A DNA stretch of 32,761 nt, from positions 1-32,761 of the forward strand of contig JBBDXD010000023.1 of the NCBI GenBank assembly GCA_040902535.1, written 5' to 3'. This DNA comes from Dehalococcoidia bacterium. GTDB taxonomy: Bacteria; Chloroflexota; Dehalococcoidia; DSTF01; JACRBR01. Below are positions 28,973 to 32,761 of this stretch, in pieces. How positions within the stretch are numbered: position 1 is the stretch's first letter; every line of letters starts with the position of its first letter. A program made the translations under genes and the position numbers. The notes under the pieces were generated by a model. It made no database searches. It was not told the origin of the DNA and saw only the letters and a program-made list of their open reading frames with translations.

Positions 28973-30568
28973 ATGTTGCGCGAGGGGTGGCGCGCACGAT
29001 TCGTGGTGCCGGTGATCATGTCTCGCCCGTTCGTGCCCCACGCCATTCGACCCAACCTCGCGCGGGTGACGCTTGTCGCCCTGGCGCTGCTCGTCTGCAG
29101 CGGCGCGATCGGGCGCGGCGCCGCCTCGGCGCAGGACCCGCAGCCGTCCGTCGCCGTAAGCCAGCTTGACAGCGCGTCGTATCCGGAAATGACCGCCGTC
29201 GTGACGGTGCTCGATGCCAACGGCACGACGGTGCGCGGCTTGCCGCCGGAGGCGTTCACCGCCAGCGACGGCGCGAATGCCGTCCAGGTGGCCGCCGTCC
29301 AGCCCGTGCTTGACGCTTCGCTGAGCCTCGGCGTCGTGCTGATCATCGACGTGTCGGGCAGCATGGAGGGTGAGCCGCTCGCCGCCGCGAAGGCAGCCGC
29401 GACGGCCTTCGTGCGCCAGCTTGACCCCGCCGACGAAGCCGCCCTGCTCGCCTTCCAGGACGACGTCCAACTGGTCATCGACTTCACGACGGACCGCGAA
29501 GCACTGGTCGCCGGCATCGATGGACTCGTCGCGGCAGGCGCCACCTCGCTGTACGAAGCGGTGCAGGCCGGCGTCTTCGCCGCCCGCTCGAGCCAGGCGC
29601 CCCGGCAGGCGATCGTCATGCTGTCCGATGGCCAGAACGACACGCTCACGTCCGACGCGACCGAAGCCGGGTCGCTCGACTCGGCGCGCGGAGCCGGCGT
29701 GCCGGTGTTTGCGATTGGCTTCGGGGGCGGCGCCGATCCGGCGTACCTGGGCCGGCTCGCGGATGCCAGCGGCGGCCGCTACTCGGCGGCGAGCGCGACG
29801 GATGTCGCGGCCGTGTATACGGCGATCGCCCAGCAGCTTCGCGGCCAGTATGCGCTGACGCTCCGTTCGACGGCGGCCGCTGACGGCGCCGATGCATCGC
29901 TGGTCGTGGCGGTCGACGTCGGCGGGCAGCGGGTTCAGTCGCCGCCGGCGCCGTTCGTGCGCGGGGAGGCGCCGCCGGCGGCGGTAGTACCGACGAGCGC
30001 ACCGCGGCCGCCCGCCGCAGATGCGGACACCAACGGTGGCACATCGCTGCTGCCGTTCGTGCTCCTGGCTCTGGTCGGCGTGCCGGCCGTTGGCGTGGTG
30101 GTCGTCGTGGCGGTGCGGCAACTGCGCTCGCGTCGCGAACAGCGCGAGCGCGACCGCGTCGCCGGTCAGCAGTCGGACCAGGGGGTGCCGCCTCCGTTCC
30201 CGGGCGCGCCGTTCGAGCATGCGCCGGAACGACACGCGCGCGTGTCGGCGGTCAGCGGCGATCAGGCGGGCACGTCGGTAGCGTTCGGTTCGATACCGAT
30301 CGTCATCGGGTCCGACAAGCAGGCGGACGTGCGATTGGCGAGTTCGCGCGAGGTGGCGCCGAAGCACGCGCTGCTCTGGGTGCGCGAAGGCAAGATCATG
30401 CTGCGGCACACCGGCGGCGTGCGGCAGACGTTATCGGCGGGGCGGCCGGTGGACTGGTTGATCCTCGAGGACGGGGACGAGTTTTCGATCGGCCCGTATC
30501 ACTACCGGGTCGAGGTGCTTGCTCCGAACGGCAGCGCGCCTAGCGCCGGAACGGGTGCTTCCAATTGA
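28973..30568 (+). CDS. Secreted/membrane VWA protein with C-terminal FHA-like domain
   Basis: The 531-residue protein has an N-terminal signal-like helix (VTLVALALLVCSGAIG, 32-47), then a von Willebrand A domain with an intact MIDAS motif D126-x-S128-x-S130 (DVSGSMEG). A proline- and alanine-rich linker follows. A transmembrane helix (about 360-382) and a basic stretch come next. The C-terminal cytoplasmic part resembles an FHA phosphopeptide-binding domain (IVIGSDKQADVRLASSREVAPKHALLWV, then LEDGDEFSIGPYHYRVEV). It therefore has an extracellular VWA and an intracellular FHA. ATG 29018 is an alternative start; neither has a good Shine-Dalgarno site. In Chloroflexota such VWA genes often accompany Flp/Tad pilus genes. 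The gene is divergent from the AAA ATPase. Its end overlaps the next gene tail to tail by 29 bases. Confidence 0.85.
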   Translation: MLREGWRARFVVPVIMSRPFVPHAIRPNLARVTLVALALLVCSGAIGRGAASAQDPQPSVAVSQLDSASYPEMTAVVTVLDANGTTVRGLPPEAFTASDGANAVQVAAVQPVLDASLSLGVVLIIDVSGSMEGEPLAAAKAAATAFVRQLDPADEAALLAFQDDVQLVIDFTTDREALVAGIDGLVAAGATSLYEAVQAGVFAARSSQAPRQAIVMLSDGQNDTLTSDATEAGSLDSARGAGVPVFAIGFGGGADPAYLGRLADASGGRYSAASATDVAAVYTAIAQQLRGQYALTLRSTAAADGADASLVVAVDVGGQRVQSPPAPFVRGEAPPAAVVPTSAPRPPAADADTNGGTSLLPFVLLALVGVPAVGVVVVVAVRQLRSRREQRERDRVAGQQSDQGVPPPFPGAPFEHAPERHARVSAVSGDQAGTSVAFGSIPIVIGSDKQADVRLASSREVAPKHALLWVREGKIMLRHTGGVRQTLSAGRPVDWLILEDGDEFSIGPYHYRVEVLAPNGSAPSAGTGASN

Positions 30569-30821
30569 AGGCCATGCGGTAGGCCTCGAAGATCAGGCCC
30601 GCCCAGAACCCGTAGAAGACGAACGTCGAGACGTACTCGATCACCTGGACGCCGGGATTGACGATGCCGAGGCCGATGATTGCGCCGAGGCCGACGCTTG
30701 TGCCGATGCCGATTCCGTTCATCGTGAAATTATCGACGATGTCAAGGTGCTGTGTCAGCAACGTTCGGGCGGAGTTTCGCAAAGAGTTTGGCGCAGGCGC
30801 GGATTGTTTCACGTGAAACAT
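30540..30821 (-). CDS. Small membrane protein whose start codon lies beside parS
   Basis: The 93-residue frame begins MFHVKQ, the amino-acid reading of a parS site, and continues through DNFTMNGIGIG to one or two hydrophobic helices (TSVGLGAIIGLGIVNPG and STFVFYGFWAGLIFEAYRM). It ends in a basic tail. No family was recognised. A later ATG (MNGIGIG) could be the real start, leaving parS upstream as a non-coding site. Its end overlaps the VWA gene by 29 bases. A small membrane protein here is plausible but not certain. Confidence 0.5.
   Translation of the reverse strand: MFHVKQSAPAPNSLRNSARTLLTQHLDIVDNFTMNGIGIGTSVGLGAIIGLGIVNPGVQVIEYVSTFVFYGFWAGLIFEAYRMAFNWKHPFRR
30805..30820. promoter_or_regulatory. 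parS centromere site (ParB-binding palindrome)
   Basis: TGTTTCACGTGAAACA is a perfect 16-bp palindrome identical to the widely conserved bacterial parS consensus TGTTNCACGTGAAACA. ParB binds such sites to segregate chromosomes, usually clustered around the origin. It overlaps the ATG of a small membrane protein. No parA, parB, gidB or DnaA-box cluster (TTATNCACA) was seen in the window, so this may be an outlying site or the edge of the origin region. Confidence 0.9.
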
Positions 30822-31138
30822 ATGTTCTCCTGAGCGCCGGTCTTCCGTTGGTTCTGGTCACCGTTATGTCGTGAAGATTGTGACGGCCGGCGTGCGGGTT
30901 AGCTTCGGCGGCGGCGCGCGATCTTGACAAGCGGCGTTACAGATCGGGCGAATGTAAAGCCAGATCGTTGACCGCCGGGCCGTCGCGCCCTATTGTTTGC
31001 TCGCGCGGAGGGGCCCCCGCCCCGCACCTGCGTCTCTGTGTCGAAGGTCCCTGGTTTGCAGCAAGGCCGGACGTCTGTCCGGCGGCTTTGCTATGTCCCC
31101 GCACGGTGTGCGGTCCAGAGGGAAGGCAACGGCCCGGT
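30822..31138. other. Intergenic region with two hairpins
   Basis: No convincing gene lies in this 317-base stretch. It contains a large hairpin at 31060-31092 and a smaller one, CCGCAC-GGT-GTGCGG at 31099-31113, just before the next gene. A TTGACA hexamer at 30924-30929 has no suitable -10 at 16-18 bases. Confidence 0.4.
31060..31092. other. GC-rich hairpin in a 5' leader
   Basis: GCCGGAC (31066-31072) pairs with GTCCGGC (31077-31083) around GTCT. The outer arms AGCAA (31060-31064) and TTGCT (31088-31092) also pair, separated by a small internal loop. No T run follows, so it is not an ordinary terminator. It precedes the small membrane protein gene by 46 bases and could be a leader element. 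Confidence 0.45.
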
Positions 31139-31393
31139 ATGAGCATCGACGCTACTCGGCATCTGCGCGCACTGAACCGCTACCGGCTGATGTTCATGAC
31201 ATCGCTGGGGATGGGGTCGTTCGGGGCGGCGCTGATCCTCGCCGGCATGCTGGCGTGGGCGGTCGGACCGTTTCCCGATTACCTGCCGTGGGGCATGGGC
31301 ATCCTTGGGGTGGCCATGATCCTGGGGTGGATGGTGACGTCTTCGACGACGCGGATTCTTGAGCGTGCAGGGTTTTTCGGACACCGCAGGTAG
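31139..31393 (+). CDS. Small membrane protein, two hydrophobic helices
   Basis: The 84-residue protein starts at ATG 31139 (MSIDATRHLRALNRYRLM). It has two predicted membrane helices (SLGMGSFGAALILAGMLAWA and LPWGMGILGVAMILGWMV) and a short basic C-terminus. AGGGAAGG lies upstream at a slightly long distance. The open frame extends upstream but the added part has no membrane or domain character. No family was recognised. Confidence 0.6.
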   Translation: MSIDATRHLRALNRYRLMFMTSLGMGSFGAALILAGMLAWAVGPFPDYLPWGMGILGVAMILGWMVTSSTTRILERAGFFGHRR

Positions 31394-31423
31394 CAGGACA
31401 GCACAAGTTCGCCGGGGGGCGCC

Positions 31424-31627
31424 ATGTTAAAGAGAGATCCAGAACGGCTTCAGAGGCTACGCATCGCGATCCGCTACCTGTTGACGAACGACGCGTTCGA
31501 GCGCGGCGACCAGGTGCGGCTGGCGAGGCACTTCCGGGTGACGCGGCAACGCGTCCACCAGGTGATCGTCGAAGAAGAAGTACGGACGGGCAGCCTCCGC
31601 ATGAAGCACCGTGACGCGGTGAGCTGA
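31424..31627 (+). CDS. Small helix-turn-helix protein
   Basis: The 67-residue basic protein has a helix-turn-helix look across GDQVRLARHFRVTRQRVHQVI (residues about 28-48). This resembles sigma-factor region 4 or small phage-type regulators. A G-rich Shine-Dalgarno tract (GGGGGG) lies just before ATG 31424. It follows the small membrane gene by 30 bases, so they may be co-transcribed. It lies next to the repeat-rich region leading to the pilin gene and could regulate it, but this is inference. Confidence 0.65.
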   Translation: MLKRDPERLQRLRIAIRYLLTNDAFERGDQVRLARHFRVTRQRVHQVIVEEEVRTGSLRMKHRDAVS

Positions 31628-31657
31628 CACGCGCGTCGATAACAGCGGCAAAGCAGG

Positions 31658-31679
31658 CGCCGTCACGGTTGTGGCGGCG
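31658..31679 (+). terminator. Possible terminator hairpin after the HTH gene
   Basis: CGCCGTCAC (31658-31666) pairs with GTGGCGGCG (31671-31679) around GGTT, nine pairs with one G-T pair. The following sequence is T-rich but without a clean T run (TCGTTGTGTGTCTCGTTG). The position 31 bases after the HTH stop fits a terminator. Confidence 0.4.
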
Positions 31680-31700
31680 TCGTTGTGTGTCTCGTTGTAG

Positions 31701-31780
31701 CGGTCAGCTATCAGCGGTCAGCGGTCAGCTATCAGCTGTCAGCGGTCAGCCGTCAACCGTCAGTCTCTCAGTCTGTCAGG
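31701..31780. repeat. Tandem heptamer array (CNGTCAG type)
   Basis: Nine heptamers run end to end from 31701 to 31763: CGGTCAG, CTATCAG, CGGTCAG, CGGTCAG, CTATCAG, CTGTCAG, CGGTCAG, CCGTCAA, CCGTCAG. Two looser eight-base units follow to about 31779. The conserved part is TCAG at a 7-base period. A 7-base period without spacers excludes CRISPR. It may be a short tandem repeat prone to slippage. Confidence 0.75.
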
Positions 31781-31846
31781 GGTCGCCGAATCGCACGGTT
31801 CAAGTGCTGCGCGCCTGAGAACGGCCGGTTGGGAGCGGCGCTTGTC

Positions 31847-31937
31847 CTTGACATGATCGCGCGTGGTCCGTGCTTGACATGATCGCGCGACTTGACATGA
31901 TCGCGGAACTTCATCGCGCGACTTGACATGATCGCGG
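31847..31937 (+). repeat. Iteron-like direct repeats of CTTGACATGATCGCG
   Basis: Four exact copies of CTTGACATGATCGCG start at 31847, 31873, 31891 and 31922. The last two sit in an exact 25-base unit (31882-31906 and 31913-31937) that also includes the palindrome TCGCGCGA. Spacings are 26, 18 and 31 bases, so they are not a uniform array. All are in the same orientation, pointing toward the pilin. They could be binding sites for a regulator or replication protein, or remnants of a duplicating element. Confidence 0.7.
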
Positions 31938-32042
31938 GCGTTGTGCGTTACGCGTTGTGGGTGTCGCCAGCGGTGGTTTTGCACAGCGACATGCGTGTTG
32001 ACAAACGTGCGCTTGCAATGCGTCCGAAAGTAAAGAAATCCG

Positions 32043-32072
32043 TTGACACCTTATTGGAGTGAACCGTAACGT
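32043..32072 (+). promoter_or_regulatory. Possible promoter of the Flp pilin gene
   Basis: TTGACA at 32043-32048 is perfect. The best -10 is TAACGT at 32067-32072, 18 bases away with three matches to consensus. The weak -10 makes this tentative and would suit activator dependence, for example on the repeats upstream. Confidence 0.3.
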
Positions 32073-32303
32073 GACGCACGGGCGTCCGTTATGACATCGA
32101 ACAGTCGCGCGTAGTTTTGGACGCGCGGCGAGACGGCGGCGTTACACCAGGGTCCGACACGGCCGGGAGGGATGGGGCTCTCGATCGATGATCGTCAGCA
32201 CGGCGTTGCCGTCGGCCGTCGGAGCGACAACCGAATAGAGGAGATGACCCCGCGCGGGTGCGACCGGCGGGGCCATGGCAACAGGAGCATGAGGCCCCCG
32301 GGT

Positions 32304-32322
32304 TGCACGACAGTATCGTGCA
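32304..32322 (+). other. Leader hairpin
   Basis: TGCACGA (32304-32310) and TCGTGCA (32316-32322) pair perfectly around CAGTA. It lies in the presumed pilin leader, about 175 bases before the start codon. There is no T run, so it is more likely a folded leader element than a terminator. Confidence 0.45.
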
Positions 32323-32441
32323 TCACGCCCAGCTCCAACAGGGCGGGCGTCCCCTTCCTCCGCGAGGGACCGGAAGACGAGCCTGTTGCCGCGCAAAGGA
32401 GGTGGCATCGGCAGACGACAGTTCTTACCGGCTCGAACGAT

Positions 32442-32468
32442 CCCGTCCGTGTGGGCGGGACGCAAAGC
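32442..32468 (+). other. Hairpin followed by GACGCAAAGC, partial GEMM-I-like motif
   Basis: CCCGTCC (32442-32448) pairs with GGGCGGG (32453-32459) around GTGT. The hairpin runs directly into GACGCAAAGC (32459-32468), a ten-base string that is the hallmark of class I cyclic-di-GMP riboswitches. The 5' GGCAAA part is not present and the second hairpin before the start codon is not formed. It is therefore at best a degenerate or variant aptamer. It lies 29 bases before a pilin start. Confidence 0.25.
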
Positions 32469-32496
32469 AACACCTTACGCAGGAGGATTCTCTTCA

Positions 32497-32730
32497 ATGT
32501 CTGATCTGGCAATTCGCATTCACGTTTGGATGACCTCGACGCTCGCTGCCCTCCGCAGCGAAGAGCGGGGCCAGGACCTCATCGAGTATGCGCTGTGGTG
32601 TGGCGTGATCGCGCTGTTCCTCATCGCCGTTGGGGCACTCGCGCTGTACACAGGGGCGGTTACGGCCATGTCGACCGGCATCGGGAACTGCATCGACTAC
32701 AACACCGTCACTCCCTGCACACCGTTCTAA
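32497..32730 (+). CDS. flp: Flp family type IVb pilin
   Basis: The 77-residue protein has a short basic leader and the prepilin motif RGQDLIEYAL. The peptidase would cut after G25, giving a mature N-terminus QDLIEY with the hallmark Glu5-Tyr6 pair. A single hydrophobic helix follows (about 31-52), then a short tail with C64 and C74 that might form a disulfide. The start at ATG 32497 is preferred, with AGGAGGA about nine bases upstream. Flp pilins build Tad-type adhesion pili; the assembly genes would lie beyond the window. Nearby VWA and AAA genes may belong to the same system. Confidence 0.9.
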   Translation: MSDLAIRIHVWMTSTLAALRSEERGQDLIEYALWCGVIALFLIAVGALALYTGAVTAMSTGIGNCIDYNTVTPCTPF

Positions 32731-32739
32731 GCAAGTTGG

Positions 32740-32761
32740 GGCTGGTGGTTCGCCACCAGCC
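32740..32761 (+). terminator. Hairpin after the pilin gene with TTCG loop
   Basis: GGCTGGTGG and CCACCAGCC form a perfect 9-bp stem around a TTCG tetraloop, nine bases after the pilin stop. The window ends at the last stem base, so a following T run cannot be checked. Such a hairpin could terminate transcription, or stabilise abundant pilin mRNA ahead of downstream tad genes. Confidence 0.6.

Follow-up and report, generated by a model that had tools for sequence, protein, structure and literature searches.

What are four identical 15-nt words doing in the space ahead of a pilin gene of a Dehalococcoidia bacterium? Our analysis of the window, i.e. the complete 32,761-nt stretch of DNA, makes it reasonably probable that the 15-mers form a putative multi-site operator through which the Tad pilin gene downstream of them would be controlled.

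Four same-strand copies of CTTGACATGATCGCG within 90 bases, as claimed by a previous sequence-only reading of this DNA, are indeed present as exact matches at 31847-31936 (Table 1). The 25-base duplication including TCGCGCGA described there is real as well and was measured as 30 nt (93%). Start-to-start spacing of the copies is 26, 18 and 31 nt, with gaps of 11, 3 and 16 nt between them. When the copies are lengthened to 20 nt, a CGCG tail is common to copies 1 and 2 and a CGA lead to copies 3 and 4; a shorter relic unit, AACTTCATCGCGCGA, sits between copies 3 and 4, and TRF reports a period of 18 for 31873-31936 (3.8 copies, 72% matches, 19% indels). The fifth, inverted and imperfect copy lies ~100 nt from the start of a 93-aa ORF and overlaps a TTGACA at 30924 (+). 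Of 100 first-order Markov randomisations of the window none contained any 12-mer four times in 90 nt, and a single one reached a 12-mer three times within 90 nt. The genome (3,184,540 nt, 28 contigs, 96% complete) was searched allowing ≤2 mismatches and yielded 18 matches to the 15-mer (4 exact, 0 with one mismatch, 14 with two) versus 10 for a reversed-pattern control. All four exact copies are located inside the array. The 15-mer is thus no dispersed genomic repeat, the outcome that the earlier reading had named as speaking against itself. The exact 15-mer was absent from 59 relatives; its paired form was missing from 392 further genomes within the class, from viral contigs and from the species collection (from which the window's own record was possibly left out). 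The full 15-mer is lineage-specific, with only the TTGACA core common to relatives, and it could partly be a product of local duplication.

Table 1. Positions of the 15-mer copies and of the features surrounding them in the window.
Feature	Position	Strand	Remarks
HTH67, 67-aa helix-turn-helix protein, candidate regulator	31424..31627	+	homologs in 8/8 family genomes
15-mer, fifth copy, inverted and imperfect, GCTTGTCAAGATCGCGCG	30915-30932	-	16/18 to copy 2 extended
Terminator-like hairpin after HTH67	31656..31691	+	stands between HTH67 and array
15-mer copy 1, CTTGACATGATCGCG	31847..31861	+	-195 from pilin -35 (TTGACA to TTGACA)
15-mer copy 2	31873..31887	+	-169 from pilin -35
15-mer copy 3	31891..31905	+	-151 from pilin -35
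15-mer copy 4	31922..31936	+	-120 from pilin -35
Further TTGACA box, GTTGACAAACGTGCGC	31998..32003	+	-45 from pilin -35
Putative pilin promoter	32043..32072	+	-35 TTGACA 32043-32048, 18-nt spacer, -10 TAACGT 32067-32072
Tad/Flp-type pilin gene, 77 aa, ERGQDLIEYA motif	32497..32730	+	first gene of Tad cluster

The gene order on the contig is PEPCK (-), an ATPase (-), a VWA-FHA protein (+), the 93-aa ORF (-), with an exact parS across its start, an 84-aa ORF (+) and HTH67 (+). Beyond HTH67 come the terminator-like hairpin, an array of heptads and the 15-mers, from which ~560 nt lead to the pilin. The 15-mers are therefore positioned between the hairpin and the predicted pilin promoter, which has a sigma70-type layout; the array lies 120-195 nt upstream of it. 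The hairpin is a weak call, because two such sites were found where 1.5 are expected by chance. The pilin itself has no Pfam or NCBIfam match. Pfam does label CpaE-like (response regulator plus AAA_31) and T2SSE ATPase genes downstream, and the genes in between we take to be TadE, TadG and CpaB. Dehalococcoidia MAGs provide the best 4 of the 80 matches listed for the T2SSE ATPase, and a Tepidiforma MAG is also near the top among those listed. Pilin homologs were found in 17 of 40 genomes, including all 8 family genomes.

Some further observations were made along this stretch. The parS (30805-30820) falls in the first codons of the 93-aa ORF, where it reads MFHVKQ. The degenerate heptad array just upstream of the 15-mers (31699-31763) consists of 9.3 copies of an AGCGGTC unit with a 21-nt higher-order period. 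The predicted pilin leader (32079-32496) measures ~420 nt, and promoters of the family also sit roughly 340-620 nt before their pilins; a structured RNA in this leader was considered and set aside, its folding being just slightly better than that of shuffles (z -1.18, 12/100 shuffles as good). Right after the pilin the window ends in an assembly gap, with undetermined bases in a GC-rich hairpin (L009 about 2762-2775) and X residues in the frames crossing it.

The main evidence comes from the pilin promoters of relatives. Seven pilin loci of the family, from four genera, have promoters organised alike, with a TTGACA followed after 17-18 nt by TANNNT or a similar sequence, and upstream of this equivalent promoter TTGACA boxes cluster. 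In the commonest arrangement, seen at 6/7 loci, one inverted box precedes the -35 by 14-15 nt; the exception is the window, whose own pilin promoter lacks the inverted box at -15. Most of the seven loci carry further boxes between -34 and -195. Within 250 bp upstream of the six other family promoters TTGACA/TGTCAA ranked first of 889 hexamers, with 13 occurrences against 0.22 expected and hits in 6/6 loci (-35 excluded), a count that none of 2000 Markov shuffles reached; with the window added the figures are 18 versus 0.25 in 7/7 promoters. Likewise, 22 of the 43 TTGACA/TGTCAA hexamers in 150,248 nt of family DNA fall into six 271-nt pilin-promoter windows (-35 hexamers included). These numbers have to be read with two selection effects in mind, as L147, one of the seven loci, was picked up by means of the inverted repeat, and TTGACA also served to choose the promoter anchor. 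The enrichment could also partly reflect extra -35-like sequence, TTGACA being the -35 consensus as well.

A comparison of upstream regions placed TGTCAA exactly 15 nt before the promoter TTGACA in four genomes. The corresponding exact form, TGTCAA-N9-TTGACA, occurs five times in 20 genomes (once in each of five family genomes, not in the other 15); a search across 18 genomes of the order returned the same five sites, with one-mismatch sites scattered. All five are located upstream of a pilin gene at the promoter -35, and the exact N9 inverted form is confined to pilin promoters in the genomes searched. Four of them are the promoters of the four genomes just mentioned; the fifth site belongs to the window's own genome, where it precedes a second pilin gene on contig C3, and more TTGACA boxes lie distally at this locus (-125 and -151). 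This genome contains seven pairs of TTGACA in direct orientation separated by 5-35 nt. The pairs fall at five places, and both boxed pilin promoters of the genome are among these. A further family genome (G002) has two contigs with a common 141-nt end; if these are taken as neighbours, its pilin promoter shows an inverted box at -14 and a direct box at -66. The latter, CTTGACAAGATCAGG, agrees with the 15-mer in 12/15 positions (1/25 background windows as good), and the same contig encodes homologs of the 93-aa ORF (53%), the VWA protein (41%) and HTH67 (61%).

The pattern has clear limits. Among 12 assessable family pilin loci seven have boxes and five (L148-L152) have none nearby; L148 is counted here as box-less, with a pilin that was listed in one homolog search and not recovered at E 0.01 in another, and one locus was left out of the assessable set since its contig begins ~190 nt before the pilin. 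Pilin loci of order-level relatives are without the box pattern, and the best match to the whole 15-mer was no better than background in 5/6 other promoters. Inverted TTGACA pairs with a spacing of 1-30 nt occur at 33 sites in eight genomes, six of them at pilins (five N9, one N8). As the remaining 27 are away from pilins, TTGACA pairs are not exclusive to pilins; among the part of these 27 that was inspected, some lie near TetR-like, ArsR-like and response-regulator-like genes (labels by eye). TGTCAA-N6-TTGACA stands beside TetR-like genes (label by eye) at three loci in three genomes, where it looks like another regulator's operator.

The array thus has a predicted pilin promoter directly downstream, and its core, not the full 15-mer, recurs at orthologous promoters. 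Because the TTGACA core recurs at the pilins of sister genera, the 15-mers look like docking sites for a protein that controls the pilin. Pilin control had been offered in the sequence-only reading as the alternative and gains from this family-wide recurrence, whereas the iteron, origin or partition role that it put first loses ground. Mechanistically, we infer a dedicated DNA-binding protein for which TTGACA would be a half-site. At the -35 this protein would keep RNA polymerase off the promoter. From the distal copies it may increase occupancy locally, or reach the promoter by looping or stacking, and so set the threshold or timing of pilin expression. The net effect could go in either direction, repression or activation. 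The species of the window lacks the inverted site close to the promoter, and its distal site would have been duplicated locally to four identical copies and then kept.

Local duplication by itself could, of course, account for the array: slippage or unequal recombination could have multiplied an 18-bp unit in an intergenic stretch already bearing degenerate heptads, which would leave a minisatellite without function. The TRF period of 18, the heptads less than 100 bp away, the decayed unit between copies 3 and 4 and the absence of the full 15-mer from all 59 relatives and of its paired form from class genomes and species collection alike fit such an origin. We nevertheless consider it unlikely, if well worth keeping in mind. 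The 15-mer is identical in 4/4 copies while the tails (CGT, CGA, GAA, GGC) and gaps vary, and a purely local event is at odds with a TTGACA core that recurs at sister-genus pilin promoters. Duplication and function are compatible for this array.

If the 15-mers are an operator, HTH67 is the nearest candidate binder, although our confidence that it regulates the pilin array is low. Its alignment comprises 18 members with 13 invariant columns, and the predicted model has three helices (pLDDT 82). Family profile matches are weak: YdaS with 18/18 members (best 1.9e-4), Sigma70_r4 with 16/18 (best 2.1e-4) and KORA with 5/18, the last alongside the KorA-domain chain 7bca at E 0.0043. The HTH67 of the window has no Pfam match at E<=0.001, and Foldseek against the PDB returned 388 rows at E<=10 and none at E<=0.001. 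The best VIA-align Z was 7.4, to homeodomains, a range which the tool's own note calls common. HTH67 is found on the pilin contig, or on its apparent neighbour, in two genomes (G000, G002), and homologs are on other contigs in the remaining ones. Inspection by eye of the ORFs listed within 4.5 kb upstream at five of the boxed pilin loci revealed no regulator gene that these loci share. A side observation concerns TGTCAAG, which was found 20-27 nt before the first HTH67-like gene at four loci (L023, L024, L027, L030) and was absent at three others (L025, L026, L028). It is close to the ribosome-binding site there, in four genera and with differing flanks, and is a possible autoregulatory site; a second, more distal hit was discounted because it apparently lies inside divergent coding sequence.

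A more specific version casts HTH67 and its relatives as free-standing minimal mimics of sigma region 4, which would read the -35 hexamer and, as a repressor, compete with sigma at the pilin -35; upstream arrays of free-standing -35 boxes could then act as a reservoir or cooperative platform. The recognition helix, TRQRVHQ in HTH67 versus TRERIRQ in sigma70 (chain 3n97_A aligned), invites this idea. Sigma region 4 is not among the 50 matches listed by either Foldseek or VIA-align for HTH67. We rate this version as improbable.

In another reading every TTGACA is a -35, and the array would provide the pilin with several transcription starts stacked one behind the other. Copies 2 and 3 do pair as TTGACA-16-CATGAT with a TG before the -10 (10/12 matches), and the promoter scan found three promoter-like sites against 0.4 expected. 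The same scan shows no -10 at a distance of 16-18 nt for the other three copies. In relatives many boxes face the opposite way to the pilin and therefore cannot be pilin -35 elements, and no -10 was seen behind them (by eye, unscored). Extra promoters are accordingly a very unlikely explanation of the array.

The origin hypothesis fares even worse. Under it the copies would be iterons bound by a replication initiator, or would belong to an origin, be it chromosomal or of a plasmid, or to a partition site. Iterons at the origins of plasmids and of Vibrio chromosome II are short identical direct repeats and are regularly spaced. The 15-mers resemble them as short, identical 15-nt direct repeats in one orientation, and an exact parS is found 1 kb from the array. 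Unlike those iterons, they come without an initiator gene or origin features and in a promoter context, and their start-to-start spacing is irregular rather than regular near whole helical turns. No replication protein was found by Pfam among nine neighbouring proteins, the array has no plasmid or viral match, and its contig bears ordinary chromosomal genes (PEPCK, Tad). The dnaA gene is on contig C18 (295,874 nt) and the window on C23 (82,110 nt), the contigs being unordered. The closeness of parS, which had made an origin- or partition-related role seem worth testing, means little because the genome holds ten exact parS on nine contigs. DnaA boxes (<=1 mismatch) were found neither in 30500-32761 nor in the 3.5-kb dnaA locus, so that the motif used may not fit this lineage. 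The lowest 50-bp GC in 31600-32500 (0.42 at 32013) coincides with the promoter. Taken together, an origin or partition role of the 15-mers is highly improbable. We give next to no credence to a transcribed element (an RNA structure, or a small peptide from a reverse frame with repeated DHVK): a 74-aa reverse ORF does cross the 15-mers, but folding is no better than in shuffles (z +1.5 and +0.4 on the two strands) and no Rfam family scores above its gathering score. The sole Rfam line, a trypanosomatid snoRNA (20.5 bits versus a gathering score of 50), was rejected.

Within open-licence full texts little is said about how Tad pili are controlled outside Proteobacteria, and we found no paper there on Tad pilus transcription in Dehalococcoidia or on a regulator of a Tad pilin promoter. 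The Bdellovibrio TAD operon is similar to our locus in that the first pilin gene has its own promoter control; unlike here, that operon is controlled by the sigma factor FliA, and the term "direct repeat" has 0 occurrences in that paper (PMC5430801). For an uncultured lineage, TGTCAA-N9-TTGACA and the TTGACA arrays constitute a testable cis-element, together with a candidate regulator. Caulobacter PilA is a Tad/Flp-type pilin, as is the one studied here, and CtrA is a response regulator. The Caulobacter crescentus pilA promoter is reported to contain four CtrA sites, of which one covers the -35 and the other three lie unevenly spaced upstream of it (PMC11264516). One site over the -35, several upstream and a motif of half-site type are common to both systems, and the gaps are irregular in both (31, 3 and 78 in Caulobacter pilA, PMC11264516; 11, 3 and 16 between the 15-mers). 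The motifs differ, TTAA-N7-TTAA in Caulobacter pilA (PMC11264516) versus TTGACA direct repeats here, four of them identical, and the CtrA-type TTAA-N7-TTAA has 0 matches at <=1 mismatch in the window. What remains is an apparent parallel in architecture to a pilin promoter whose extra upstream CtrA sites are reported to lower and delay expression (PMC11264516).
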